This document shows positions 2,161 to 17,020 of a DNA stretch of 17,020 nt, piece after piece. Source of the stretch: Bacteroidales bacterium. GTDB lineage: Bacteria > Bacteroidota > Bacteroidia > Bacteroidales > SM23-62. Within the stretch, counting starts at the first letter, position 1, and the number at the start of each line of letters is the position of its first letter. The translations under genes and the position numbers were made by a program. Under the pieces are notes generated by a model that saw only the letters and a program-made list of their open reading frames with translations, was not told the DNA's origin and searched no databases. The stretch is from NCBI GenBank assembly GCA_016783865.1, contig JADHVS010000086.1, forward strand, positions 1 through 17,020, written 5' to 3'.

Positions 2161-3666
2161 TTACAACGTCCAGCCTTGGCGGTAGTTGTGCTTGATCAGT
2201 TCAGCAGCAAACTCCTTGGCATTGATCGGATCGGTATATTGAGTGTCGAAATGCGGGTGACCGTCAATGATTTCAAAGGCATCTGATGTAACAATCTTTA
2301 TTGTATCAGAATCTGAAATGTTGGTGAATTCCATGTTTTCCCCATCCCATAGCAATTCGCGCTTGAGATCCTGCAATCTCACGGCTACAACACCCATAAC
2401 GACCATCTCATTGAGTGGCCCGGCATATCCAAAATTAGAACTGGCTTCTGTCCTGCTTTCAGGACTTTCCTTACAGGCCCTTACCCAGTCCATATAATGT
2501 CCAAGGTCAATTCTTGGAAGGGACTTGGCTGGCCTGGTATATGACTCATCATATGACAACGGAAGCAGGAACGGATTCATACCGTAGGTACCGCACAACA
2601 GTTTCCCCTTTGTCCCTATCAGCAGGCAACCACCATTCCAGTCACGACCCAATAGTTCTCCGACTGGATGATCCTCCGGCCTTGGTGGCAATAAACCTCC
2701 ATCCCACCAGGATACTTTCACCTCAGGTAAATTTACCTTCTCTAATCCTGACCTTTCCGGAAATGTGAAGTGAGCAACCTGAGCAGTTGGTGCACATTCG
2801 GTATTGATCAGTGTGGAACTTCCCTGAACTTTGGAAGGATACTCCAGATGAAGAGCCTTAAATATAGGATCCATGATATGACATGCCATATCACCTAACG
2901 CACCTGTACCGTAATCCCACCATCCACGCCAATTCCAGGGATGAAGTAATGGATGATAAGGTTTCATTTTAGCTGGTCCGATAAACAGGTCCCAGTTCAA
3001 TGTATCAGGTGGCACATGTTCATCTTTTGGCCTCTCGAGACCTTGTGGCCAGATGGGTCTGTTGGTCCATGCATGTGCCTCAACTACTTCACCGATTGCA
3101 CCATCCCAGAACCACTCGCAAAACTGCCTGATGCCTTCACCGGAATTGCCCTGGTTACCCATCTGTGTTGCCACTTTATATTCCTTGGCAATCTTGGTCA
3201 TTTGTCTTGATTCCCATACAGAATGAGTCAGTGGCTTCTCACAATATACATGCTTTCCAAGTTTCATGGCATTGATCGAAACAATGGCGTGTGAATGGTC
3301 AGCTGTTCCCACAACCACAGCATCGATACTGTCTTTCATCTCATCGAACATCTTCCTCCAGTCCCAGTATTTCTTCGCCTCCGGAAATTGCTCAAAAATT
3401 CCGGCAGAATATTTCCAGTCAACATCACACAGGGCCACAATATTTTCACTTTTTAATTCCTTGATGACTCCACCACCACGTCCGCCTATTCCTACACCGG
3501 CAATATTCAGCTTATCACTGGGAGCGGTATATCCCAGTCCGCTGACGACTTTACTCGGTACAATTGTGAGTCCGGCAGCAGCAGTTGCTGTTGTAGCGAT
3601 AAAAGTACGACGGGAAAACGGGGTCGCTCCTTTCGATTTTTTGTTCTTTTCCATAATAATGCTCAT
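2161..3666 (-). CDS. TAT-exported Gfo/Idh/MocA-family oxidoreductase
   Basis: A 501-residue NAD(P)-dependent oxidoreductase probably acting on a sugar, sugar acid or inositol in the periplasm. Residues 18-23 (S-R-R-T-F-I) followed by an Ala/Thr-rich hydrophobic stretch form a twin-arginine signal, expected for export with cofactor already bound. The Rossmann dinucleotide site is G-V-G-I-G-G-R-G-G-G (57-66), the family motif C-E-K-P is at 142-145 with Lys144, and the later G-D-M-A-C-H-I-M-D-P segment carries the His typical of the substrate site. The length fits the longer secreted subgroup common in Bacteroidota and Planctomycetes. Translation may begin at Met1 (3666) or Met5 (3654); no Shine-Dalgarno decides between them. 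It is followed by a terminator and lies upstream of hydrolase genes on the same strand. Substrate cannot be read from the sequence. Confidence 0.9.
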   Translation of the reverse strand: MSIIMEKNKKSKGATPFSRRTFIATTATAAAGLTIVPSKVVSGLGYTAPSDKLNIAGVGIGGRGGGVIKELKSENIVALCDVDWKYSAGIFEQFPEAKKYWDWRKMFDEMKDSIDAVVVGTADHSHAIVSINAMKLGKHVYCEKPLTHSVWESRQMTKIAKEYKVATQMGNQGNSGEGIRQFCEWFWDGAIGEVVEAHAWTNRPIWPQGLERPKDEHVPPDTLNWDLFIGPAKMKPYHPLLHPWNWRGWWDYGTGALGDMACHIMDPIFKALHLEYPSKVQGSSTLINTECAPTAQVAHFTFPERSGLEKVNLPEVKVSWWDGGLLPPRPEDHPVGELLGRDWNGGCLLIGTKGKLLCGTYGMNPFLLPLSYDESYTRPAKSLPRIDLGHYMDWVRACKESPESRTEASSNFGYAGPLNEMVVMGVVAVRLQDLKRELLWDGENMEFTNISDSDTIKIVTSDAFEIIDGHPHFDTQYTDPINAKEFAAELIKHNYRQGWTL

Positions 3667-3865: not shown

Positions 3866-4498
3866 GTGAGCCGCTATATTCATAATCTTATCAGCCAGGG
3901 AGAGCATCAGCAACTCGATTTTAAATATGAGATCTCCGATGCGAGGAAAATTGCCAGAACGCTCGTTGCCTTTTCAAATACTGATGGCGGAAAACTGTTG
4001 ATCGGTGTTAAGGACAATGGCAATATCACCGGAATACACTCAGATGAGGAGTATTATATGATTGAAGCAGCCGCCCAGATGTATTGCCGGCCGGAAGTAA
4101 AATTTACCGTTATAAAATGGTATTTATCAGGAAAATCCATCCTGGAAATTGATATCCCTAAAGCTTTCAAAAGACCCTTTTTTGCTCTTAATGAAGAGGA
4201 AAAATGGATAGCCTATATACGCAGAAACGACCAGAATCTGCTGGCCAATAAAATATTACTGAAGGTCTGGGAAAAGGAGAACAGGAAAAAGGGCTCAATC
4301 CTCAGGTATTCGGAAAAAGAGGAGATCCTGCTTCATTACCTGGATCAGCATGAACAAATTACCTTTTCAAAATTTTGCCGGATCGCCAGGATTTCAACAA
4401 AGATGGCAGAAGAGATTTTATCCACACTGATCTGTTTCCGGATCATTGAGATGGAGATCACAGAAAAGTTTACCTGTTTCTTTCTTTATAAACAGTAA
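3866..4498 (+). CDS. AlbA_2/Schlafen-type domain protein with C-terminal winged helix
   Basis: A 210-residue cytoplasmic protein. The start is GTG: an in-frame TAA lies at 3833 and no ATG occurs between it and 3866. Residues about 1-125 match the AlbA_2 domain (also called divergent AAA-4 or Schlafen AlbA): E-H-Q-Q-L-D-F-K near the start, the strongly conserved A-F-S-N-T-D-G-G-K-L-L-I-G-V-K-D-N-G block, and the later W-I-A-Y-I-R-R-N segment. The remainder (about 140-205) is charged and helical, consistent with a winged-helix DNA-binding fold. Members of this family are common in Bacteroidota as putative nucleic-acid-binding regulators; no AAA ATPase domain is attached here. It stands alone between the divergent oxidoreductase gene and convergent purQ, so context gives no target. 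Confidence 0.85.
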   Translation: MSRYIHNLISQGEHQQLDFKYEISDARKIARTLVAFSNTDGGKLLIGVKDNGNITGIHSDEEYYMIEAAAQMYCRPEVKFTVIKWYLSGKSILEIDIPKAFKRPFFALNEEEKWIAYIRRNDQNLLANKILLKVWEKENRKKGSILRYSEKEEILLHYLDQHEQITFSKFCRIARISTKMAEEILSTLICFRIIEMEITEKFTCFFLYKQ

Positions 4499-5451: not shown

Positions 5452-6303
5452 GTGAAATCTTCAGAAAAACACGAAGTTGGAGACAAGGATTTGCGAATGT
5501 TTATTGATACCGTGAAAAACTTGTCGGATTATGATTTCTCTGACTATTCCGACAAATCATTGAAGCGCCGGCTGTCGAAAATTTTGCTTGATTCGAATCT
5601 TACAATTTCTTCCTTGCTCGAAAAAATCAGCAATAACCAGGATTTTCTGGAAGAGATCGTAAAGAGTATAACCGTAAATACTACGGAATTATTTCGTGAT
5701 CCCCCCATCTGGGATACCATGCGCCAGGATATCTTACCCCATTATAAGGACAAATCTGAAATTCTGATCTGGCATGCCGGCTGTTCAACCGGGCAGGAAG
5801 TATATTCCATGCTCATACTGCTTTACGAGATGGATCTTTTTCAAAAGTCAAAGGTGTATGCAACAGATATTAATTCAGATGTATTGACTTATGCAAGCGA
5901 GGGAATTTACAAGTATAAATTCAATGTCAATTACCTGGATAATTTCGATAAGGTGATCAGGCAGGATACAAACGGAGAGTTGATCGACGTACCTTATTCA
6001 AAGTATTTTTCAATCGAAAAGACCCGCGATCTGCTCAGGATGCATCAATTTCTCCTTGAAAAGCCTGTGTACAAGAAACAGGACCTTGTATCCGATCCCA
6101 ATCCATTTCCGGTTGCCTATGATATTATCATTTGCCGGAATGTTGTGATATACTTTAACTATGAGCTTCAGAATAAGGTTTTTAAGCTGTTCTACGATGC
6201 AATGAAGCCCGGCGGAAGTCTTTTACTTGGTGTTCATGAAACAATTTTAGGCCCTGTATCCAATTTTTTTATTAAGAAAAGTCAGGTCTATTATAAAAAA
6301 TAA
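5452..6303 (+). CDS. cheR: CheR-type protein-glutamate O-methyltransferase
   Basis: A 283-residue methyltransferase that uses S-adenosylmethionine to methylate Glu side chains on chemoreceptor-type coiled coils. The N-terminal helical domain (about 12-75) contains the usual D-F-S-D-Y-S...S-L-K-R-R-L signature. N-T-T-E-L-F-R-D-P (about 79-87) is the conserved loop before the catalytic domain. SAM-binding elements are intact: W-H-A-G-C-S-T-G-Q-E (107-116), V-Y-A-T-D-I-N (135-141) with Asp139 for the ribose, and I-C-R-N-V-V-I-Y-F-N (227-236). The start is GTG (an in-frame stop is at 5437); Met16 at 5497 is a possible internal alternative. It heads a run of plus-strand signalling genes and is 35 bp before a receptor-like protein, its most likely substrate. 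No CheA, CheW or flagellar gene is nearby, so the target pathway is probably not classical chemotaxis. Confidence 0.92.
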   Translation: MKSSEKHEVGDKDLRMFIDTVKNLSDYDFSDYSDKSLKRRLSKILLDSNLTISSLLEKISNNQDFLEEIVKSITVNTTELFRDPPIWDTMRQDILPHYKDKSEILIWHAGCSTGQEVYSMLILLYEMDLFQKSKVYATDINSDVLTYASEGIYKYKFNVNYLDNFDKVIRQDTNGELIDVPYSKYFSIEKTRDLLRMHQFLLEKPVYKKQDLVSDPNPFPVAYDIIICRNVVIYFNYELQNKVFKLFYDAMKPGGSLLLGVHETILGPVSNFFIKKSQVYYKK

Positions 6304-6338
6304 ACTATTTTAATCATTCATTACTGAATTCGGGCGAT

Positions 6339-9020
6339 ATGCTTATCCGGAAAATACCTATACGGTCACGATTCTTTCTCTTATCAGTTTTTTCAGTATT
6401 ATTATGGTTATTTGCTGGTTTACTGCTCTTCAGCTACCTGGAAACTTTCAGCCACGACCATCAGATCTCGATGAAGATCAATGGCCTGACCGTTCAAATA
6501 TTACAGATGGAGAATACTCTGCATGATTTTCGCCAGCAGGATGTGCGCAGAAGTGATTTTTATGAAACGGGGAACAGTGACTATATAAATCAGCTCAGTC
6601 AACTTTATATCAACACTTATAACCAGGTTAATGAATTAAAAACCCATCCCGGGTTCCGCAAGGCTCCACTTATAACTCAAAAGCTAAATAACCTCAGTAA
6701 CTATCTTTACAGTCTGGATGAGCTGGCCAAAGAGTTGATATCCAGGGTAAGAGAACACGGAAACAGCAATTATGGCCTGCATAACCAGGTGACCGGACAA
6801 TTACAGAATTTATATAACCTGTCGTATCAAAACCGGCCCGGTGATGTGGAGAACCTGGTCAACGAACTGGAATGGATGTTAAATGATTATTTGCCCGGGC
6901 CCGGTCTTATCAAGGCTCAGCAGATGAGTGACCTCGTGAACCAGATTATTTCATCCCTCCAAGCAGAATCCAACCGTGCCGGTACATCTTCCAATAACTC
7001 CGATATATCCCGGATGCTGGCATCTGCAAGTGCCCTCCAAAATAACCTGACAGAGCTGACTGAGCTGGATAAATCCATCGGTTATTCGACTTTTGAAGGC
7101 TTGCAGGGTGATATCAAACGAAACTTCGATATCATCATTGAAGAGATCAATGCAATGGACTACCTGGCTGAGTTAAATATATCCAGCAAGCAAAGAAAAA
7201 CCGGTTATGGTTTATTGACATTTATCCTACTGGCAATCATTTCAAGCGGCCTCTTTATTATATCCCTTTCCCGTTCATTGCAATGGCCCCTCAGTAATTT
7301 AATGTTATTTATCCGGGAAATGGCAAGCGGAAAACTTCCGGATCCTTATCAATGTAAAGGGAATGATGAATTTTCAGGAATCGCTGACGACCTGAATACC
7401 TTAACCGGGAACCTGAAGGAGAAAATCCGGTTTGCTTCGGAGATCCGGGTAAATGAAAATACTGCCCTGCCCGATATGCTTAGCGAGGATGATGCACTGG
7501 GGAGAGCGCTTCTCGATATGGGAGATCATTTGCAATCCATCCAGGCCGAAGACCGCAAGCACAAAGCTGAATCAGAAAAACGGCGATGGATTAATGAAGG
7601 CCTTGCAAAATTTGAAGAGATATTGAGAATCCACAGCAGTCAACTCGATGTACTTGCCGATAATGTTATTAAAAACCTGGTTAAATACCTGAATGCCTCC
7701 ATTGGGGGATTGTTCCTCACTGATCCCGGCACCGGCGAGACGCTGGAACTTATTTCGGCCTTCGCCTACGACCGAAAGAAATACCTGGTAGATAAATTCA
7801 GTTTGGGTGAAGGGCTTGTTGGCACATGTGCCATTGAAAAACAAAAGATTTTCATAACAGATGTTCCGGATGATTATGTCCGGGTTTCTTCAGGGATTGG
7901 TGATTCCAGACCAAAAAGCCTTTTACTCGTCCCGCTGAAACTGGAGAATGAGCTGCTTGGAGTAATGGAAATTGCTTCCATGCTGGTCTTACAGGACCAT
8001 GAGATAGAATTCGTTGAAAAGATAGGGGAAAGCATAGCATCGGCTGTTTCAGCTGTCCGGATAAATATGAGAACCAGCCAGTTACTGCAGCAATCCCAGG
8101 AACAGGCCAGGGAAATGGCCGAGCAGGAAGAAAAGCTGCGCATGCAGATGGAAGAACTGCAGGCCACCCAGGAAGAGTCTGCCAGAAGGGAGTCTGAAAT
8201 AACAGGCATCCTGAATGGGATCCATAATTCTTCGCTTGTGGCCGAATACAATATGAATGAAGAACTCATCGAGATCAATGATAAGTTCTTACTGCTGCTG
8301 GAAACGCAGAGGGATCATATCCTCGGGAAAAAATATAATGAGATCATCGGTGTCAGCAGGCACACAGATGATTACAAGAAATTCTGGCAAACGCTCAGTG
8401 ATGGAAAAACGATATCGAATGTTGAAAAAATAAAACTGGTTACCGGAAATGAGATCTGGCTCAGGCAAACCTATTCACCCATCCTGGATAAAGATGGATC
8501 CCCCTTTAAGATCCTGAATATCGCCACCGACATATCAGAAACAATTCGTCAGCAGGAATCACTTAAAAGGCAGGCCAGTGAAATATCAAGGGCCAACGTT
8601 GAGATGCAGACTTTCAGTGATGCGGTGGACCAGGCCATTATAAAATGCGTATATTCTCCTGCAGGCCAGATACTTGAGGTAAATGAGAATTATGAAAAAG
8701 TGACCGGATATTCCCAGAAGGAGATGGTTGGAAAGAATAACCGGATCTTCCTTCAGCGGTCAGAAAAAGATCAATTTGAAAAGATCTGGAATGATGTGGT
8801 CAAGAATAAGCCCTACCGTGGCGTGATCAGGAGGACGAAGCCTACGGGTGAACAGATTTGGATCATGTCGACCTTCACACCCGTTAAAGATGAAGACGGT
8901 ACCATTTTTAAGGTTTATTTTCTGGGACAGGATATTACCGAAAGAAAATTGAAATATCAGCTCCTCGAGGAAGCCAATAATGAGATAGAACGACTCAAAA
9001 AGCAAATTGAACGTGGCTAG
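6339..9020 (+). CDS. Membrane receptor with helical sensor, HAMP, GAF, coiled coil and two PAS domains, no output domain
   Basis: An 893-residue inner-membrane sensor. TM1 is about 12-32 and TM2 about 290-312, enclosing a largely helical periplasmic domain of some 255 residues, a size and look that fit a helical-bundle (HBM-like) ligand domain. Then come HAMP (about 312-370), a second HAMP-like linker ending W-I-N-E-G-L-A-K-F-E-E-I-L-R, a GAF domain (about 440-575), a Glu/Gln-rich coiled coil (about 578-620), PAS1 (about 621-742), PAS2 (about 755-870) and a short terminal coil. There is no histidine kinase, cyclase, phosphatase or MCP signalling domain, so it must act through partners. The coil carries E-E-L-Q-A-T (605-610), matching the MCP methylation consensus. 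Flanking cheR genes (35 bp before, 2 bp after) make methylation by CheR a natural hypothesis. PAS and GAF ligands are unknown. Confidence 0.85.
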   Translation: MLIRKIPIRSRFFLLSVFSVLLWLFAGLLLFSYLETFSHDHQISMKINGLTVQILQMENTLHDFRQQDVRRSDFYETGNSDYINQLSQLYINTYNQVNELKTHPGFRKAPLITQKLNNLSNYLYSLDELAKELISRVREHGNSNYGLHNQVTGQLQNLYNLSYQNRPGDVENLVNELEWMLNDYLPGPGLIKAQQMSDLVNQIISSLQAESNRAGTSSNNSDISRMLASASALQNNLTELTELDKSIGYSTFEGLQGDIKRNFDIIIEEINAMDYLAELNISSKQRKTGYGLLTFILLAIISSGLFIISLSRSLQWPLSNLMLFIREMASGKLPDPYQCKGNDEFSGIADDLNTLTGNLKEKIRFASEIRVNENTALPDMLSEDDALGRALLDMGDHLQSIQAEDRKHKAESEKRRWINEGLAKFEEILRIHSSQLDVLADNVIKNLVKYLNASIGGLFLTDPGTGETLELISAFAYDRKKYLVDKFSLGEGLVGTCAIEKQKIFITDVPDDYVRVSSGIGDSRPKSLLLVPLKLENELLGVMEIASMLVLQDHEIEFVEKIGESIASAVSAVRINMRTSQLLQQSQEQAREMAEQEEKLRMQMEELQATQEESARRESEITGILNGIHNSSLVAEYNMNEELIEINDKFLLLLETQRDHILGKKYNEIIGVSRHTDDYKKFWQTLSDGKTISNVEKIKLVTGNEIWLRQTYSPILDKDGSPFKILNIATDISETIRQQESLKRQASEISRANVEMQTFSDAVDQAIIKCVYSPAGQILEVNENYEKVTGYSQKEMVGKNNRIFLQRSEKDQFEKIWNDVVKNKPYRGVIRRTKPTGEQIWIMSTFTPVKDEDGTIFKVYFLGQDITERKLKYQLLEEANNEIERLKKQIERG

Positions 9021-9022
9021 AT

Positions 9023-9859
9023 ATGCTCACAATAACCCCAGCAGATACCAGGAAGCTCATCCAATCGGTTCGTTCAGACTATAACCTTGATCTTTCAGAT
9101 ATTGGATTTAACCTGTTGCGGTACAGGATAAGCCAGTACCTTGAAAAGCATTTGATCAAGGACGCTGAAAACCTTATTACCCGTCTGCTTGAAGATGAAA
9201 CCTGCATGGATGAGTTTTTATCCGGGATTTCAGCCGGTTCATCAGAACTCTTTCGTGATCCGGGGATGTGGAAAAACCTGAGGGTGCAAATTATTCCTCA
9301 ATTGTTTACTGCGTTCAGGCAACCTGTATTCTGGCTGCCCAAAAGCGTGTCGGGCCATGATGCCTTCAGCCTGCTCATTCTGTTGACCGAGGAAAAATTC
9401 ATTAATCAATGTCAAATCTATTCGTCCACGTCGAATTTTGTTGACCTGAAACACTTACAGGCCGGAACCCTGGAAAAGAATCTTATGAATCTGAGCAGGG
9501 AAAATTATTTGAATGCCGGCGGCAGAAAATCACTTGAGGAATTTTTTAACCGGAGAAGTGACAATATTAATCCATCGCTGATCAGGAAAATCAAATTTAC
9601 ACGCCATAATAATATGTTGAATGATTCACCGGAGCAGGCACATTTAATCATGATCCGGAATCAATTATTAAACTACACCCAGCCAATTAAAAATCACATA
9701 TTAGATAACCTGGCGGAAATGATTCCTGCCGGCGGGATCCTGGTTTTGGGAGTTAAAGAACTAATTGAAGATGATAGGATTACCCGGAAATTTGAAAGAC
9801 CGGTAGCGGATGAAAGTATCTACCGGAAAGTAGTAACTCAAAGAACAGGTAATCAATGA
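9023..9859 (+). CDS. Degenerate CheR-like protein, SAM site lost
   Basis: A 278-residue CheR paralogue that aligns along its length with the CheR at 5452, offset by three residues in the catalytic region. The N-terminal helical part and the S-S-E-L-F-R-D-P-G-M-W loop are kept, and the end A-G-G-I-L-V-L-G-V-K-E is CheR-like. The cofactor site is not: W-H-A-G-C-S-T-G-Q-E of the intact copy is W-L-P-K-S-V-S-G-H-D here (104-113), A-T-D-I-N is S-S-T-S-N (134-138) so the ribose-binding Asp is gone, and C-R-N-V-V-I-Y-F is I-R-N-Q-L-L-N-Y (211-218). The reading frame is intact and it is embedded in an operon with 2-bp and 4-bp junctions, so it looks like a maintained pseudoenzyme rather than a decaying gene. 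A role as receptor-binding scaffold or competitor of CheR is inference. Confidence 0.82.
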   Translation: MLTITPADTRKLIQSVRSDYNLDLSDIGFNLLRYRISQYLEKHLIKDAENLITRLLEDETCMDEFLSGISAGSSELFRDPGMWKNLRVQIIPQLFTAFRQPVFWLPKSVSGHDAFSLLILLTEEKFINQCQIYSSTSNFVDLKHLQAGTLEKNLMNLSRENYLNAGGRKSLEEFFNRRSDNINPSLIRKIKFTRHNNMLNDSPEQAHLIMIRNQLLNYTQPIKNHILDNLAEMIPAGGILVLGVKELIEDDRITRKFERPVADESIYRKVVTQRTGNQ

Positions 9860-10422
9860 TTAAGGCATTGGTAATAGGAGGTTCAGCCGGCAGTTTTAAG
9901 GTTGTTGCAGATCTGCTGAGAACTTTAAAAGGTCCGATGCCATTCCCCACTTTTTTATGTTTACACAGGTTAAAACAGGTAAGGACCGGCATTGCTGAAA
10001 TACTGGGTGACAAGTCCCCGGTGAAAATCATTGAACCATCGGATAAAACGATGATTGAAAAAGGCATTATATATCTTGCACCGGCCAATTACCACATGTT
10101 CATTGAGGATGAGCATACTATCACCCTGACTATCGACCCTCCGGTGAATCATTCAAGGCCTTCGATTGATATTTGCTTTGGATCAGCAGCTGAAGCATTT
10201 GGGAAGGATGTTTCCGGCATATTATTGTCGGGGGCAAACAGGGATGGAACATCAGGCATGATCGCATTAAAAAAGCAAAACAGCTACTGTATAATCCAGG
10301 ATCCTGATGATTGTGAAATTTCCACAATGACAAAATCGGCCCTGCAATGTATTGATCCCGATAAAATATTAAGCTCGGAACAGATAATTGATTTTATATA
10401 TTTCCTGTCGCAAAAAGTTTAA
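9856..10422 (+). CDS. cheB: Stand-alone CheB-type methylesterase domain
   Basis: A 188-residue protein consisting only of the CheB catalytic domain, which removes methyl groups from (or deamidates) chemoreceptor Glu/Gln residues. The catalytic Ser is in G-G-S-A-G-S (Ser10), the His in L-H-R (His37) and the Asp in L-S-G-A-N-R-D-G (Asp130); the conserved R-P-S-I-D motif is at 101-105. All triad positions are therefore present. The receiver domain that normally controls CheB by CheA phosphorylation is absent, as is any CheA in the window, so its activity must be constitutive or controlled by binding. Its ATG overlaps the preceding stop in an ATGA, implying translational coupling with the CheR-like pseudoenzyme. 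The gene name is by domain; its substrate is presumed to be the GAF/PAS proteins of the same operon. Confidence 0.88.
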   Translation: MIKALVIGGSAGSFKVVADLLRTLKGPMPFPTFLCLHRLKQVRTGIAEILGDKSPVKIIEPSDKTMIEKGIIYLAPANYHMFIEDEHTITLTIDPPVNHSRPSIDICFGSAAEAFGKDVSGILLSGANRDGTSGMIALKKQNSYCIIQDPDDCEISTMTKSALQCIDPDKILSSEQIIDFIYFLSQKV

Positions 10423-10449
10423 ATTTGTTATGAGCAAACAATCCTGATA

Positions 10450-11256
10450 ATGTTTAATAAAGACAAATACCGGCTGATTGCCATATTTTCATTCATTGCG
10501 AGTGTGTTGTTGCTGTTTTTACTTTTCATCGTCCTGTGGAATAATTTATCGATGAATCCGGAAGTAAATACAAGCAATTCAATTTACTTCATCCTGCTTT
10601 TGATTCTTATTGCTGTCGGGGCCTTGTTTGTTGTTCACTTGTTGCATGTTAATGTACTGCATGTGGATCATAAGATTGAAATCCCTGGGCTAGACACAGA
10701 TCAGCCTGGAAGCGATGAACAATCCTCCGTCGTTACTGAAGAATCGCCTGTATTGACATATGATATTGACATTGATCAGTTAGCTGAATTCATTGTTCCC
10801 CGCCAGAATCCGAAGGAAGACATTGAAGCTTTTGCAGAAAAGATCCTGACCAATATTGCCAAACAGTTTGAGGTTGTGCAGGGAGTTATTTATCTGAAGG
10901 AGGATGAGAAGCAGGAGTTTCGGCCTGTTTGCACCTATGCATGGGCCTCTGAAAAAGCACCGGCCTCATTTATAACCGGAGAAGGACTTAATGGTCAGGC
11001 TGCAAAGAATAAATCAGTAATGAAGGTTACAGATATTCCTGAAAACTATATTAAAATTACTTCCAGCCTGGGAGAAGGATCACCAGGAAACCTGATCCTC
11101 GTCCCGCTGTTGCTTAATAAAGAATCTATCGGGATGATTGAGCTGGCCTGTTTTAAGGAAATAGATGATGAAACAGAATGGACCTTTAAAAACCTGGCCA
11201 GGATCATTTCCAATAGTTTTGTAACCAAGTTGAAAGCAATCAAAGAGAAGGAATGA
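10450..11256 (+). CDS. Two-helix membrane protein with a single GAF domain
   Basis: A 268-residue inner-membrane protein with TM helices at about 9-31 and 45-66, a short acidic linker, and one cytoplasmic GAF domain (about 130-262). The GAF is clearly paralogous to those of the two large proteins in the operon: it shares the G-E-G-L-x-G-x-A-A, V-T-D-I-P-E-N-Y and L-I-L-V-P-L blocks. It ends right after the GAF, so the coiled coil with the E-E-x-x-A-T site, the PAS domains and any output domain are missing. The last codon overlaps the start of the PP2C phosphatase gene (ATGA), and its layout equals the N-terminal third of that phosphatase. It may assemble with the phosphatase as a ligand-binding or regulatory subunit (inference). 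The GAF ligand is unknown. Confidence 0.75.
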   Translation: MFNKDKYRLIAIFSFIASVLLLFLLFIVLWNNLSMNPEVNTSNSIYFILLLILIAVGALFVVHLLHVNVLHVDHKIEIPGLDTDQPGSDEQSSVVTEESPVLTYDIDIDQLAEFIVPRQNPKEDIEAFAEKILTNIAKQFEVVQGVIYLKEDEKQEFRPVCTYAWASEKAPASFITGEGLNGQAAKNKSVMKVTDIPENYIKITSSLGEGSPGNLILVPLLLNKESIGMIELACFKEIDDETEWTFKNLARIISNSFVTKLKAIKEKE

Positions 11257-13874
11257 GTTTATCTGATAAAAATAGGTTCTTCCGCTTCCCAACGTACAAA
11301 AGGGCATTGGTTTATGCTGTTGCGGCTGGTTTTATATTTCCACTCATTGCTATTTTTATCGTCTTAATCAATCAGAAACTATCCATTGATCCGTCTAACA
11401 TCATATCCATCCACGGATCACATCCCGAGATATTCCTGTTCTATTTACTTCCGTTGTTATTTGTCCTTGTGGTTATGGTCTGGAACATAATCAGAACAAA
11501 TGAGACAGAGCATTATCGAGAGATGATCAATAAGTCAAACCAGATCATTAGCAGGAATGCCGCCTTTGCTGAAGAGATCGGGAAAGGAAATTATAACGTC
11601 GATATCACACCGGAGGGAGAAAACGATTTATTGGGAAAATCACTCCTGGTGATGCGGCAGAATTTGCTGGCGAATTACAAGAAAGAGTCTGAACAGAACT
11701 GGATATCAGAGGGACGCAACCTGATATCCAATATCCTCAGGATATACAATAAGCTGGAAGAACTGGCGGATCATGTGCTTGAACACCTGGTAAAATATAC
11801 TGAGGCCATTCAGGGGGCTGTTTATTTATTTGATGAAGAGGACGAGAAACTCGTGAGCCTGGCCACTTATGCGTACAGCAGGAAAAAATTCATACATAAG
11901 GAATTTAAACTTGGGTTTGGATTGGTCGGCCAGTGTGCCTATGAAAAGGATTATATATACAGGACGGAGATACCGGAAGATTATATTACCCTCACTTCCG
12001 GTATTCTTGGTGATCAAAAACCCGGTTGCCTGCTGATCGTACCACTGATATCCGACGACCAGCTGCAGGGGATCATTGAAATTGCTTCGCTGAAGGAAGA
12101 GATCCCTGAATTGACGATCCGGCTGGTAAAGGAGCTTGGCAATATCATTGCGCGCACCATATTTAACCTGCGGGTCAATCAAAAAACAGAGCACCTGCTG
12201 GAAGACTCGCAGAAAATGACCATTGAATTGCGCGAAAACGAAGAGAAACTGAAAGAAAATGCAGAGGAGATGCGGGCAACACAGGAAGAACTGCGGAATT
12301 CAAACCAGCAGCTTGAATCAAAGATCCTCGAGGTGGAGAATGCCCAGACCCGGTTGTACAGGCTGCTGGAAAATGCCTCGGAGATAATTTCTATTTATAA
12401 CAGCGATCAGTTAATGACCTATGTGAGCCCTTCTGCACAAAATATTTTAGGTTACTCAGCAGAGGAATTAATGAAGGGTAAGGACATGGAGCGTTTATCC
12501 CTGGAGGGGCAGTCCGGGATGCAGCAGGTTTTTGAGCAGGTCATCCAGAAACCTGATCTCACTCCGACGATAGAATATTCGTTTGTAAGAAAAGATGGAC
12601 AGATCGTGTTTCTTGAAACAACAGTCATTAACAGGCTTGATGATCAGTCGATTAAGGGCATTATCCTAAATTCGCGGGATATCACGGAGCGGCGCAGGGC
12701 AGCCAGGGAGGAACGTTTGAAAACCCGGATGCAGTCGCTGTCAGAAAACAGCCTTGACATGATTATCAGGTTAAGCGTGGAGGGCCGGTTCTATTATGCT
12801 AATCCTATAGTTGAGAACTATACCGGTAATCCACCCGGCGCACTGTTTAATAAAAACCTCTCTGAAGTGCAACTTTCAGATGAGCTGAAGGAATATTTCG
12901 AAAAGACCCTCGATGACATAAAAAAGGATCCTGAAAAATCAAATACAGAGCTTACTTTGCCGGTTCGGGCCGGAGTGGAATCGACAAAGCAAATCATGAG
13001 CATCGATGCCATCCCTGAATTTAATGAGGATGAACTGGAAACCATTTTGTTTGTCGGGCATGATATTACAGAGGCCAAGCGCATTGAACAGGAGATCCAG
13101 ATTAAAAACAGGAAGATCGAGGACAGTATCAACTATGCCGAACGCATACAGAGCAGTATACTTCCCGGGATAAAACTTGTACAGCAACACCTGCCCAAGT
13201 CTTTCTTCTATTACAAACCAAAGGATGTGATCAGCGGGGATTTTCCCTGGTTCTTTGCGAAGAATAATGCTGTTTATATCGCGGCTGTAGATTGTACAGG
13301 ACATGGGGTGCCCGGGGCACTGCTTTCATTTGTCGGATATTTCCTGCTGAATAACCTGGTCGAGCGAAACGTCGAATATACGGCAGGCCAGATCTGCGAT
13401 CAGCTTCACCAGGGCGTGAGGTACACCCTGAAGCAAAATACCGAAGATGCCGATGCCAGAGACGGGATGGACATTGCCTTTTGCAAGATTGATCTGGCCA
13501 ACCAGGAATTACATTTTTCCGGGGCACACCGGCCCTTATATTTACTCAGGAATGGCGAAATCGAGGAGTATAAGGGCGACCGTAAAGCCATTGGCGGGAT
13601 CCCGAGCCGGAAGAGGCCGGAATTCGATTTTACCAACCATGTGATTAAGATCCGGAATGGCGACAGGATCTTCTTCTTTACCGATGGGTTGCCCGATCAG
13701 CTGGGTGGGCCGGAAAAGAAGAAATACTCGCCAAAAAGGATCCGTGAGATCATAACTGATAATCCTGGTTTTACCATGAACCAGTACAAAACCCGTTTTA
13801 TGAAGGATTTTGAGGAATGGATGGGTGATTTGCGTCAGATCGACGATGTACTGATCATTGGAATAGAATTTTAG
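11253..13874 (+). CDS. Membrane GAF-PAS-PAS-PP2C (SpoIIE-type) serine phosphatase
   Basis: An 873-residue inner-membrane protein phosphatase, the likely SiaA-type counterpart of the SiaB/SiaC genes that follow. Domains: TM1 about 18-40 and TM2 about 50-72 with almost no periplasmic part, a HAMP-like segment (about 80-140), GAF (about 172-315), Glu-rich coiled coil (about 316-365) with E-E-M-R-A-T at 338-343, PAS1 (about 368-483), PAS2 (about 492-610), a helical linker typical of this class, and a PP2C/SpoIIE domain (about 640-873). Metal-binding Asp are present: Asp663 in S-G-D-F, Asp680 in V-D-C-T-G-H-G, Asp811 in F-T-D-G-L and Asp864/865 in I-D-D-V. F-P-W replaces the more usual F-Y-W after Asp663. 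It should dephosphorylate Ser/Thr on the SiaC-like protein. Coiled-coil Glu may be CheR/CheB targets (inference). Confidence 0.9.
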   Translation: MSLSDKNRFFRFPTYKRALVYAVAAGFIFPLIAIFIVLINQKLSIDPSNIISIHGSHPEIFLFYLLPLLFVLVVMVWNIIRTNETEHYREMINKSNQIISRNAAFAEEIGKGNYNVDITPEGENDLLGKSLLVMRQNLLANYKKESEQNWISEGRNLISNILRIYNKLEELADHVLEHLVKYTEAIQGAVYLFDEEDEKLVSLATYAYSRKKFIHKEFKLGFGLVGQCAYEKDYIYRTEIPEDYITLTSGILGDQKPGCLLIVPLISDDQLQGIIEIASLKEEIPELTIRLVKELGNIIARTIFNLRVNQKTEHLLEDSQKMTIELRENEEKLKENAEEMRATQEELRNSNQQLESKILEVENAQTRLYRLLENASEIISIYNSDQLMTYVSPSAQNILGYSAEELMKGKDMERLSLEGQSGMQQVFEQVIQKPDLTPTIEYSFVRKDGQIVFLETTVINRLDDQSIKGIILNSRDITERRRAAREERLKTRMQSLSENSLDMIIRLSVEGRFYYANPIVENYTGNPPGALFNKNLSEVQLSDELKEYFEKTLDDIKKDPEKSNTELTLPVRAGVESTKQIMSIDAIPEFNEDELETILFVGHDITEAKRIEQEIQIKNRKIEDSINYAERIQSSILPGIKLVQQHLPKSFFYYKPKDVISGDFPWFFAKNNAVYIAAVDCTGHGVPGALLSFVGYFLLNNLVERNVEYTAGQICDQLHQGVRYTLKQNTEDADARDGMDIAFCKIDLANQELHFSGAHRPLYLLRNGEIEEYKGDRKAIGGIPSRKRPEFDFTNHVIKIRNGDRIFFFTDGLPDQLGGPEKKKYSPKRIREIITDNPGFTMNQYKTRFMKDFEEWMGDLRQIDDVLIIGIEF

Positions 13875-13889
13875 CCAACTCTTAGCTGA

Positions 13890-13924
13890 AATCGGGGAAA
13901 CACTCCGATTATTTTATTATTTTA
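13890..13924 (+). terminator. Terminator- or attenuator-like hairpin between phosphatase and siaB
   Basis: AATCGGGG (13890-13897) pairs with CTCCGATT (13903-13910, one G-T wobble) around an AAACA loop, followed by ATTTTATTATTTT. It begins 15 bp after the phosphatase stop. The T-run is interrupted by A, so termination is probably partial; it could lower expression of the kinase and phosphoprotein genes relative to the sensor genes, or mark an internal transcript end. Confidence 0.55.
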
Positions 13925-13945
13925 GTTCCTGAGTCAATATTTGTT

Positions 13946-14530
13946 ATGGGAAAAAACCAGACAATTAATTCTGCAGGTTTTCTGGAATTTGTATATGATT
14001 TTTACAAATCGATGAAAACCCATGAGATCAAACTGGTGTATGAAGGTAAAGTAACCCATCAGATTACCAAAGCTTTTATTGCCCTGGCGGAAGCTCAGCT
14101 GGAAGAAAAGGAAGAAACGGCCAAGGTACAAAGAACCGTTTTTCATGTAATGGTGGAATGCCTGCAAAATATAAGCAGGCACGCCGATGAATATGAATCG
14201 GGTGATTATATGTATTCGGGAAGAGGGATTTTCATGGTAAGCAACACAACCGATTCATATTGGATCACTACCGGGAATGCCGTCACCAACGATAAGATTG
14301 AAGGGCTGAAAAAAATGATTAATGAGGTAAATGATCTTTCAAATGATGATCTTAAAGAGCTGTATATGAAGCAGATGCGCGAGGGAAGGCTGTCTTCTAA
14401 AGGTGGAGCCGGCCTGGGCTTTATCGACATCAGGAGAAAAACCGGGGAAAAACTGGATTATCATTTCTTGCCAATCTCAGATACCATATCATTCTTTCTG
14501 CTTACAACTGTTATTCCCAGAACCATTTAA
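13946..14530 (+). CDS. siaB: SiaB-family protein kinase
   Basis: A 194-residue cytoplasmic protein of the SiaB family, GHKL-fold Ser/Thr kinases that phosphorylate SiaC-type partners. The ATP-binding landmarks are visible: the N-box M-V-E-C-L-Q-N-I-S-R-H (69-79) with Glu71 and Asn75, and the glycine box S-K-G-G-A-G-L-G-F-I-D-I (151-162). Length and the order of motifs match the family. It lies 71 bp after the phosphatase gene, behind a terminator-like hairpin, and 10 bp before the siaC-like gene, which is the arrangement of kinase next to substrate known from the Pseudomonas siaABCD operon. Known: in P. aeruginosa SiaB and SiaA set SiaC phosphorylation in opposite directions. Inferred: the same antagonism works here with the GAF/PAS phosphatase. 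Symbol by family resemblance. Confidence 0.87.
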   Translation: MGKNQTINSAGFLEFVYDFYKSMKTHEIKLVYEGKVTHQITKAFIALAEAQLEEKEETAKVQRTVFHVMVECLQNISRHADEYESGDYMYSGRGIFMVSNTTDSYWITTGNAVTNDKIEGLKKMINEVNDLSNDDLKELYMKQMREGRLSSKGGAGLGFIDIRRKTGEKLDYHFLPISDTISFFLLTTVIPRTI

Positions 14531-14540
14531 ACCTTGACAG

Positions 14541-14918
14541 ATGGAAAAACTGAAAAAAGAAGGCACTGAAGACAGTCCGAAAGTCATTCTGGATCCCGAA
14601 AATAAGGTTATGGAGATCTCGGGAAGATCCTTGCCCGAAGACGTAGCCACCTTCTATGAACCCATAATTTCCTGGTTGGAGGAATACGCTAAAGAGCCAG
14701 ATGATAAAACCGTGTTTACCTTCAGGCTGGACTATTTTAACACGGCCACCTCCAAGGTGATCCTTGATATCCTGGTCATGTTTGAAGAAATGATAGAAGA
14801 AGGACATAGTGTAAACGTTCGATGGTTTTACGACGAAGAGGATGAAGACATGAAGGCGGCAGGAGAGGAATATTCTGAAATGGTGGATGTTCCTTTTGAA
14901 ATGATCTGCATCACCTGA
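14541..14918 (+). CDS. siaC: SiaC-family regulatory phosphoprotein (DUF1987)
   Basis: A 125-residue cytoplasmic protein of the SiaC/DUF1987 family, STAS-like switch proteins whose phosphorylation decides which partner they bind. The family core is seen as D-Y-F-N-T-A-T-S-K (64-72) followed by the V-I-L-D-I-L helix, and V-R-W-F-Y-D further on. Thr68 in Y-F-N-T lies in the motif that carries the phosphorylated Thr of P. aeruginosa SiaC and is the best candidate site; Thr70 and Ser71 are adjacent alternatives. The C-terminal third is very acidic. It follows the kinase gene after 10 bp. In Pseudomonas the dephosphorylated protein activates the diguanylate cyclase SiaD; no GGDEF gene is present here, so the partner is unknown and could be another protein in or beyond this operon. 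Confidence 0.88.
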   Translation: MEKLKKEGTEDSPKVILDPENKVMEISGRSLPEDVATFYEPIISWLEEYAKEPDDKTVFTFRLDYFNTATSKVILDILVMFEEMIEEGHSVNVRWFYDEEDEDMKAAGEEYSEMVDVPFEMICIT

Positions 14919-14951: not shown

Positions 14952-17020
14952 ATGAGCGAGGAGATTCTAAAAGCTTTAATGCAACTATTTGCCCTTATCT
15001 CTAAACAGGATGGGGGGGTCGAGGATAATGAAAAAACCTATGTCCGCAATTTTCTTTCCCAACAAATAGCCAACCAGAAGGTAGAGGAATATTATTCTCT
15101 TTTTGAGGACTTTGCCGGATTACGTGACGCTCAGGCGGAGGAGAAATCGGGTGAGCAAAAGCTTACTTCCGTTATTGATTCGGTCAGGGTACTGGGAATT
15201 TGTAAGAAGATCAACAAAACGCTTAACCAGGGGCAGAAGGCTGTCGTACTGGTGCGGCTGTTTGAACTGGTGAATTCAGCTACCAAATTCACCCCTCAGC
15301 GTATGGCTATCATAACTGCCGCGGCTGACGTATTTAAAATACCCCAGGATGAGGCCGCCAGCATTGAAAAGTTTAACCTGGCTTCAGCACCTGAAGATAT
15401 AATTGGTTCAAATATAATAGTTGTTAATTCGCTGGAAGCGGAAGCCGGGGATATCAGGCATATCAGGACAGAGACTCTTGATGGGCATATCTTCATTCTT
15501 AATATACCCAGTGTTGATCTTTATTTTCTGAAGTATTCCGGTAAGGAGGAGATTTTCCTTAATGGATTACCGGTGGCACATCACAGGATCTATCTGTTTG
15601 CATCGGGGAGCACAATAAAATTGCCTAAGGGTAAACCGCTGTATTACAGCGACATATCCGCCTACTTTTTACAGGAAAAAACGGCAGGCCGGATATCATT
15701 CCATGTCGATCACATTACATACAAGTTCCCGAATGGCGTACCTGGTATAAGGGATATCAGTTTTGCTGAAAACCAGGGGAACCTGGTAGGTATTATGGGT
15801 GCCAGTGGATCGGGTAAAACTACCTTGCTGAATATCTTGTCGGGACTGGCTCCTCCGTCGCAGGGAAAAGTTATGATAAACGGAAATGATTTATATGAAG
15901 ATAAGGATCAGTTGCAGGGAGTGATCGGACTGATCCCGCAAGATGACCTGCTCATAGAAGAGCTGACTGTTTATCAGAATCTGTTTTATAATGCAAAGCT
16001 TTGTTTCAGGGATCTGGACGACAGAGAGATTTCAGAACTTGCGGAGAAAACGCTGAACAACCTTGGATTATTGGAGACAAGAGACCTTAAGGTAGGATCG
16101 CCGTTTAATAAGTTTATATCAGGGGGGCAACGGAAGCGGTTGAACATTGCTTTAGAACTGATCCGTGAACCTTCGATTTTATTTGTCGACGAGCCGACTT
16201 CCGGATTATCTTCGAAAGATTCGGAAAATGTGATGGACCTGCTGCGTGAGCTGGCCCTCAAAGGCAAGCTTGTATTTGTGGTGATCCATCAGCCCTCATC
16301 CGAGATATACAAAATGTTCGATAAGATCATTTTCCTTGATACAGGAGGGTACCTGATCTATTATGGAAATCCTGTCGAGGCAGTCATGTATTTTAAACGA
16401 CAGGATGCCCAGATCAACGCGGATATTGGCGAATGTTCGGTATGCGGAAGTGTCAATCCGGAACTGATCTTCAATATTATCGAGTCGAGGGTAGTGGATG
16501 AATTCGGGAACTACGTGAATGAGCGAAAAGTGCCTTCTGAAAAATGGGCTCAGCTTTTTACTGAAGAACTGGAAGAAAATGCTGAGAAGGATATCCGGGA
16601 GTCGCCTCCCAAAAACCTGAAGATCCCTTCCTGGCCGGTCCAGTATATCATTTATTTCATTCGGGATTTCCTTTCAAAAACCAGCAACAGGCAGTATGTG
16701 TTATTTACCCTGCTGGAAGCGCCTGTCCTGGGATTTATTCTTTCTTACATTATCAGGTACATCGTTGATCCCTCCTCCAAAACATATATTTTCAGGGAAA
16801 ATGAGAACATCCCGATCTATATTTTTATGAGCCTGATCGTGGCGCTGTTCCTGGGATTAATTGTGAGTGCAGAGGAAATCTATCGCGACAGAAAGTTGCT
16901 AAAGCGGGAGGCTTTTCTTAATCTGAGCAGATCATCATACTTGCTGTCGAAAACTTCAATCCTTTTATTAATCTCTGCAATTCAGACCATTACGTTTGTA
17001 ATTATTGGCAATAGCATCCT
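14952..17020 (+). CDS. ABCG-like ABC-2 transporter with TerB-like N-terminus (cut by right edge)
   Basis: The frame is open from the ATG at 14952 to the right edge, 689 codons. Residues about 1-140 are acidic and helical and resemble a TerB-like domain (K-Q-D-G-G-V-E-D-N-E-K-T-Y-V...Q-Q). About 150-250 is beta-rich and somewhat FHA-like, without recognisable phosphothreonine-binding residues. The ATPase (about 255-480) is complete: Walker A G-A-S-G-S-G-K-T-T (283-291), Q-loop I-P-Q-D-D, signature I-S-G-G-Q-R-K-R from 389, Walker B L-F-V-D-E-P-T (Asp413, Glu414), and H-loop His446. A C-S-V-C-G pair follows. The permease begins with TM about 582-605 and 621-638, an E-I-Y-R-D-R-K-L-L-K-R-E coupling segment typical of ABCG half-transporters, and part of a third helix. 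ATPase-before-permease order indicates an exporter-type ABC-2 family. It is 33 bp after the siaC-like gene; substrate unknown. Confidence 0.85.
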   Translation, partial: MSEEILKALMQLFALISKQDGGVEDNEKTYVRNFLSQQIANQKVEEYYSLFEDFAGLRDAQAEEKSGEQKLTSVIDSVRVLGICKKINKTLNQGQKAVVLVRLFELVNSATKFTPQRMAIITAAADVFKIPQDEAASIEKFNLASAPEDIIGSNIIVVNSLEAEAGDIRHIRTETLDGHIFILNIPSVDLYFLKYSGKEEIFLNGLPVAHHRIYLFASGSTIKLPKGKPLYYSDISAYFLQEKTAGRISFHVDHITYKFPNGVPGIRDISFAENQGNLVGIMGASGSGKTTLLNILSGLAPPSQGKVMINGNDLYEDKDQLQGVIGLIPQDDLLIEELTVYQNLFYNAKLCFRDLDDREISELAEKTLNNLGLLETRDLKVGSPFNKFISGGQRKRLNIALELIREPSILFVDEPTSGLSSKDSENVMDLLRELALKGKLVFVVIHQPSSEIYKMFDKIIFLDTGGYLIYYGNPVEAVMYFKRQDAQINADIGECSVCGSVNPELIFNIIESRVVDEFGNYVNERKVPSEKWAQLFTEELEENAEKDIRESPPKNLKIPSWPVQYIIYFIRDFLSKTSNRQYVLFTLLEAPVLGFILSYIIRYIVDPSSKTYIFRENENIPIYIFMSLIVALFLGLIVSAEEIYRDRKLLKREAFLNLSRSSYLLSKTSILLLISAIQTITFVIIGNSI

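Follow-up and report, generated by a model that had tools for sequence, protein, structure and literature searches.

Gene content of the locus

A block of eight genes at positions 5452-14918 of a 17,020-nucleotide stretch of DNA from an uncultivated member of the Bacteroidales (contig JADHVS010000086.1; the window refers to this whole stretch) was analyzed, in which methylation enzymes of the CheR/CheB type adjoin a phospho-switch of the SiaABC type. The block encodes CheR1, a membrane receptor, CheR2, CheB, a GAF domain protein, a PP2C phosphatase, SiaB and SiaC, all on the forward strand. An earlier sequence-only reading had named these eight genes and described them as a nearly gapless run. 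All open reading frames were found where that reading had placed them, Pfam and NCBIfam matches agree with the names, and the intergenic gaps range from -4 to +71 bases. As had also been claimed, no CheA, CheW, MCPsignal, receiver or GGDEF domain was found among the block proteins (Pfam, E 0.1), and no HisKA, HATPase or receiver domain was detected in the locus with Pfam. The end of the block at SiaC did not hold up, however, as an ABC transporter gene begins 33 bases after siaC as a ninth gene and runs off the window end; in relatives it is followed by genes for a lipoprotein and a small secreted protein.

CheR1, CheR2 and CheB

Methyl-tagging by CheR and CheB provides the enzymes for bacterial memory in chemotaxis. 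The first gene of the block, cheR1 (5452-6303, forward strand), encodes an active-type protein-glutamate methyltransferase (PF01739, 119 bits) that aligns to 5ftw and 1af7. The S-adenosylmethionine (SAM) site motif is present and Asp139, the equivalent of a SAM-contacting aspartate, is Asp in all 35 of 35 CheR1 sequences. CheB (9856-10422, forward strand) is a methylesterase domain without a receiver (143 bits). Ser, His and Asp, the catalytic triad, are kept at their positions in the alignment to 1chd, and the active residues of both CheR1 and CheB are intact.

The second CheR homologue, CheR2 (9023-9859, forward strand), matches CheR at 53 bits and has lost the SAM-site residues, in agreement with its earlier description as a dead CheR. 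The key SAM-site Asp is gone from 37 of 39 sequences of the CheB-adjoining CheR; the exceptions are L047 and L074, the sole CheR of the latter being of the active type. The structural model of the window CheR2 (pLDDT 86.5) has 5ftw as its best structural match (E 1.3e-14), indicating that the protein retains its fold but no longer the cofactor site. Judged from sequence and model, CheR2 is a conserved pseudoenzyme, a predicted pseudo-methyltransferase with the CheR fold and without the SAM site. It also diverges faster than CheR1 as measured on the sequences: identity to the window copy is 22-36% for CheR2 (where the window copy was the best match) versus 40-66% for CheR1, and on average CheR2 sequences are 1.54 away from the group ancestor and CheR1 sequences 0.77, with a support of only 0.30 for the CheR2 clade. 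Nothing on point about CheR pseudoenzymes was found among the matches listed in the open-licence literature. In two genomes, G006 (L107) and G014 (L108), cheR2 and cheB are jointly missing while cheR1 and the receptor stay.

Conservation of the gene block

Conservation was evaluated across 99 genomes related to that of L001, in which close CheB was defined as E 1e-40 or better, a cut of our choosing, and the phosphatase was called at E 1e-150. A CheB match was found in 53 of the 99 genomes and a close one in 39, while the phosphatase was found in 37, as a single copy each at this cut. Close CheB and phosphatase occurred together in 34 genomes, CheB alone in 5, the phosphatase alone in 3 and neither in 57, which corresponds to a Fisher value of 9e-18 that ignores ancestry. 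One of the five CheB-only genomes (G004) bears a partial phosphatase at a contig end. In 20 of the 34 genomes with both, the two genes are located together: their starts lie within 6 kb in 19, and the twentieth is G001, whose contigs break inside the phosphatase gene. The pair of G041 lies on opposite strands.

The order downstream of the phosphatase is conserved as well. Among 40 phosphatase loci siaB comes next in 38 and siaC is found in 38, and where the contig leaves room these are followed by the ABC gene (35/36) and by the lipoprotein gene X301 (30/32). Y148, a small secreted protein, turned up in 27 of the 40 loci, and in 8 of the 12 that have more than 6.8 kb of room. Not all loci have a receptor between CheR1 and CheR2; it is absent from, for example, L047, L053, L060, L062 and L072. 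The genes are kept together in related genomes, and a chance neighbourhood was rejected on the basis of synteny across diverged genomes.

A sample of 296 Bacteroidota contained 4 orthologues of the phosphatase, that of G001 included. The three new ones, from distant Bacteroidota (L120-L122), lie in loci of the order CheR-CheB-GAF-phosphatase-SiaB-SiaC-ABC-X301, where the single CheR is of the active type. The association of the methylation genes with the switch thus looks old, and the dead CheR looks like an addition.

Glutamate pairs in the receptor and the phosphatase

The membrane receptor (6339-9020, forward strand) is composed of a weak HAMP match, a GAF domain, a coiled coil and two PAS domains, has hydrophobic segments at residues 10-38 and 288-314 and carries no output domain. 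The phosphatase (11253-13874, forward strand) is a membrane protein of the order GAF, coiled coil, PAS, PAS and PP2C (SpoIIE), with a SiaA-like catalytic domain in which the metal-site motifs are kept; it scores 154 bits against the SiaA model, under the equivalog cut-off of 700, in a match that spans residues 609-871 only. Between cheB and the phosphatase gene lies the gene for a protein with a GAF domain, by Pfam, and two hydrophobic segments (10450-11256, forward strand).

The post-GAF coiled coils of receptor and phosphatase both bear glutamate pairs, MEELQATQEE and AEEMRATQEE, respectively. The core motifs, EELQATQEE in the receptor (residues 605-613, window 8151-8177, forward strand) and EEMRATQEE in the phosphatase (residues 338-346, window 12264-12290, forward strand), mark candidate methylation helices. 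Conservation of the phosphatase linker is comparable to that of the catalytic domain, with a mean entropy of 0.79 versus 0.90 in 121 homologues. Among loci linked to CheB, 18 of 21 keep the first phosphatase glutamate pair, versus 2 of 8 unlinked ones (p 0.004), and so do all three distant linked orthologues. Both pairs are kept in two of three further loci without CheB. In G014, where CheR1 is present and CheR2 and a close CheB are absent, the motif is lost in both proteins.

The distribution of the motif over the 99 genomes was examined as well. The exact receptor motif occurs in 11 genomes, all of which have a close CheB. A loose form was found in 30 of the 39 close-CheB genomes versus 7 of the 60 others (140 versus 8 hits); since 13 hits across all 99 genomes were also obtained with a backward control, the 8 hits may be background. 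The pattern EEL..[ST][NQHK]EE, which also covers EELRQTNEE, was found in 45 of the 53 genomes that have a CheB of any kind and in 7 of the 46 that lack one, with 179 versus 7 hits and a single hit in the backward control. Upon stratification by a proxy for GAF/PAS content, namely the first-look candidates of the phosphatase search, the link between motif and CheB persisted in hit counts (p 0.003). The coiled coils of sensor and phosphatase carry glutamate pairs, and the distribution of these over genomes follows CheB, less clearly so after stratification. This constitutes correlative evidence for a substrate and is not proof of one.

Neither MCPsignal, the signalling domain of methyl-accepting chemotaxis proteins (MCPs), nor CheW was found in 13 of the 39 close-CheB genomes, an absence that is provisional as genome completeness was not given. 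The usual substrate was therefore not found there. Among genomes lacking both, the loose motif occurs in 5 of the 13 with a close CheB versus 6 of 51 without (p 0.04).

Similar sensors were observed beside other CheR-CheB pairs. Out of 14 free-standing CheR-CheB loci of Bacteroidota that were fetched (L080-L093), all 10 inspected have motif-bearing GAF sensors, with heptads of the QQEEL..[TSA]NEEL type (L080, L082, L084, L085, L087, L088, L090-L093); the three sensors run through Pfam are all hybrid histidine kinases. A Che operon at L101:405-9100, comprising CheA, CheW, CheR, HATPase, CheD and a receiver-bearing CheB, adjoins a motif-bearing GAF-PAS receptor without MCPsignal (Pfam), and L100 and L102-L105 have comparable GAF-PAS receptors, identified from similarity alone, in the vicinity of CheR and CheB. 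The genomes of L100-L105 have MCPs, with an MCPsignal match in the same stretch in L103 and L104, so in these the substrate may be other than the GAF-PAS protein. The linkers of three CheR-containing fusion proteins (L129, L130, L131) themselves have EELQSTNEE heptads in tandem, as though each protein came with its own substrate.

SiaB, SiaC and the exporter

The SiaB-family kinase (DUF6272; 13946-14530, forward strand) scores 165.6 bits against NF038262, for which the cut-off is 85, and the stretches that resemble an N-box and a G-box align with 6kko_A. The SiaC phosphoprotein (14541-14918, forward strand) matches PF09345 above the cut-off and falls under the SiaC equivalog cut-off. Alignment with the published peptide LLYLNTSSIK places the equivalent of Thr68, the residue phosphorylated in Pseudomonas SiaC (PMC7647112), at codon 14742-14744 on the forward strand. 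Ten SiaC matches were found in one genome, G001 (L002-L009, L097), and three of these share a 2-kb stretch of a single contig. In L074:13580-14759 two tandem siaB genes precede siaC, in a locus with one active-type CheR and no dead CheR.

The ninth gene (14952-17020, forward strand, incomplete at the window end) encodes an ABC exporter with TerB, an FHA-like domain, an ABC ATPase and an ABC-2 membrane part. The full-length protein has 1015 amino acids in L040, and a relative in Bacteroides sp. SM23_62_1 is 72% identical. Searches of the exporter N-terminus by sequence returned no Pfam FHA match and no match to solved structures, and the fold of the FHA-like domain (residues about 150-245, window 15399-15686, forward strand) was suggested by an AlphaFold model with a pLDDT of 83. 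Most top rows of a Foldseek search with this domain were FHA, at a probability of up to 1.00, with a best E of 9e-3 and none reaching 1e-3; VIA Z for FHA chains was at most 8.0 (5xzv_B, 91 aligned, rmsd, i.e. root mean square deviation, 3.9), a range that common arrangements can reach. After the exporter follow X301, a conserved lipoprotein-like protein (L040:657-1562), and the small secreted protein Y148 (L040:221-655), both with a signal peptide apparent by eye. Neither gave a Pfam match for the L040 pair or an NCBIfam match for the L043 pair. Two further SiaB-SiaC pairs (L095, L096) also have a similar ABC gene (50% identity) less than 3 kb away, encoded on the opposite strand.

An output through cyclic di-GMP (c-di-GMP) of the Pseudomonas type was rejected, with no GGDEF in the locus and a GGDEF protein in just 4 of the 99 related genomes. 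As such proteins are nearly absent, the exporter, which the earlier reading had not included, is the likelier output.

No match to the Bacteroidota promoter pattern was found within the window. A hairpin with an AT-rich tail at 13890-13910, inside the 71 bases that separate siaB from the phosphatase gene, is a possible attenuator; it was not taken as an operon end because 20 such terminator-like sites were found where 8.9 are expected. Upstream of the block lie a gene for a Schlafen/AlbA_2-domain protein (3866-4498), which is near the block in several relatives too, and, on the opposite strand, one for a glycoside 3-dehydrogenase of the BT_2158 family (2161-3666) that exceeds the curated cut-off.

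Comparison with known systems

The closest precedent is found in Bacillus cereus, where RsbM adds methyl groups to the signalling helix of the GAF hybrid kinase RsbK and thereby restrains a PP2C-driven sigma B switch (PMC4574943, PMC12848376). RsbM is termed an orphan without a methylesterase by the authors, who cite 127 RsbK-like kinases in 10 phyla. The RsbK-RsbM-RsbY-RsbV-RsbW system resembles the locus in that a CheR-type enzyme acting on a post-GAF helix controls the phosphatase of a partner switch. The output there is a sigma factor and no dead paralogue is mentioned in the text available, whereas the block described here has a dead CheR and SiaC with a seeming exporter as output. It further differs in having CheB, a candidate helix in the phosphatase itself and, by domain searches, neither a histidine kinase nor a receiver encoded in the operon; neither a CHASE3-GAF hybrid histidine kinase nor a receiver-PP2C protein was found in the locus. 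The earlier idea consequently has precedent. The sequence-only reading had named no described system with this combination; the principle of a CheR enzyme acting on a PP2C switch is known from Bacillus cereus, while the exact combination of genes was not found in the open-licence literature, among the matches listed.

Likeness to SiaABCD of Pseudomonas aeruginosa (PMC7647112) extends to the SiaA-like catalytic PP2C with its metal-site residues, the SiaB-family kinase and SiaC with Thr68, all of which were recognized in the locus by sequence. The locus is however without SiaD, the GGDEF diguanylate cyclase targeted by SiaC, its sensor part is GAF-PAS-PAS, and CheR, CheR2, CheB and the exporter are added. 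With chemotaxis adaptation it shares the CheR and CheB families, active residues intact, but not the CheA, CheW and MCPsignal partners of a Che array; CheB lacks a receiver and there is an extra dead CheR. The free-standing CheR-CheB loci L080-L093 are alike in their CheR-CheB pair, GAF sensor and coiled coil with glutamate pairs, and differ in having a receiver-bearing hybrid histidine kinase as output (three by Pfam) in place of the PP2C, SiaB and SiaC proteins found here. A census of Campylobacterota names both CheB and SiaABCD and, in its accessible text, treats them apart (PMC9239204).

Proposed mechanism and alternatives

We propose that the block encodes a non-chemotactic adaptation circuit on a SiaABC-type phospho-switch with the exporter as output, a proposal we regard as having about an even chance of being right. 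CheR1 would methylate, and CheB demethylate, glutamates in the post-GAF coiled coils of the receptor and the phosphatase. The methylation state would alter the drive of the sensor domains on the phosphatase and result in a chemotaxis-like memory. The phosphatase would strip phosphate from SiaC at Thr68 and SiaB would add it, and the state of SiaC would gate the adjoining TerB/FHA-like ABC exporter instead of a diguanylate cyclase. The dead CheR is most likely a competitor or scaffold that sets the access of CheR1 and CheB. What appears new relative to the precedent is the methylesterase, the pseudo-CheR, the candidate helix in the phosphatase itself and the SiaB/SiaC/exporter output. A more specific version is that the reversible methylation pair, tuned by the pseudo-methyltransferase, acts directly on the phosphatase helix and so sets the phosphorylation of SiaC, which gates the exporter, without CheA, CheW, MCPs, histidine kinases or c-di-GMP, and that CheR/CheB substrates among the sensors of Bacteroidota are recognizable by the shared GAF-linker motif; this we put forward tentatively, as possible and on balance doubtful.

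Several results weigh against the proposed circuit. Methylation of the coiled coil is suggested by the motif distribution only, and the motif fits the classical MCP methylation consensus just in part. After stratification its presence, as opposed to hit counts, gave p 0.06. The second phosphatase glutamate pair does not differ significantly between linked and unlinked loci (17/21 versus 3/8, p 0.07), a phosphatase pair is lost in 6 of 8 aligned loci whose CheB is located elsewhere, and in G006 the pairs are kept in both proteins although CheR2 and CheB are missing. In G032 (L075) a CheR2-like gene and cheB lead directly into siaB, siaC and the ABC gene, and this genome has no phosphatase gene at E 1e-150. 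Ancestry was addressed with a single-gene tree of Ffh built from 80 of the 89 genomes with an Ffh match, nine being left out (one fragmented gene and eight judged most distant, none with close CheB or phosphatase); ten of the 99 genomes gave no match, and five of those have both CheB and the phosphatase. Only 4-5 independent contrasts fell on supported branches, an MCP control behaved alike, and co-occurrence free of shared ancestry was not demonstrated. As for the exporter, phosphothreonine-binding residues of the FHA domain, usually Arg and Ser, were not evident by eye in its alignment.

Some of these points would fit two independent modules in one operon, with CheR1, CheR2 and CheB serving the receptor or other GAF sensors such as histidine kinases and the phosphatase, SiaB, SiaC and exporter standing alone. 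CheB and the phosphatase lie apart in 14 of the 34 genomes that have both, the first phosphatase pair is seldom kept in the unlinked loci and other free-standing CheR-CheB pairs adjoin GAF histidine kinases. Set against this are the linkage in the remaining 20 and in three distant genomes, the retention of the first pair in most linked loci and the presence, in three split genomes (L110, L117, L126), of active-type CheR genes close to the phosphatase; we consider such independence unlikely, if a serious contender. That CheR and CheB serve ordinary MCPs encoded elsewhere, their place beside the switch being accidental, seems very improbable. Proteins with MCPsignal do occur in 26 of the 39 close-CheB genomes, but the other 13 weaken this explanation, the block order is conserved, and the six inspected genomes with MCPs (L100-L105) have a separate, longer CheB (358-364 amino acids) near its own CheR, which in L101 comes with a receiver, CheA and CheW by Pfam. 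The output of SiaC could instead be transcriptional or enzymatic, through another partner such as a sigma/anti-sigma pair or an unlinked enzyme, with the exporter as a co-transcribed passenger. The ten SiaC paralogues of one genome imply that SiaC partners may be unlinked, and the lack of evident phosphothreonine-binding residues in the FHA-like domain points the same way. The exporter nevertheless follows SiaC in nearly all phosphatase loci with room, distant ones included, and the similar ABC gene near two other SiaB-SiaC pairs also argues for a connection, leaving this alternative rather improbable.

Three leads stand out in value: the pseudo-CheR, which is conserved, the helix of the phosphatase, which may be a target of methylation, and the exporter in its putative role as output. 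If the proposed circuit is correct, conserved inactive CheR proteins would have a role and SiaC a candidate output other than c-di-GMP, and free-standing CheR/CheB pairs of Bacteroidota would gain a testable substrate motif. Reversible glutamate methylation would then be a portable adaptation add-on for a serine/threonine phosphatase switch, beyond chemoreceptor arrays.
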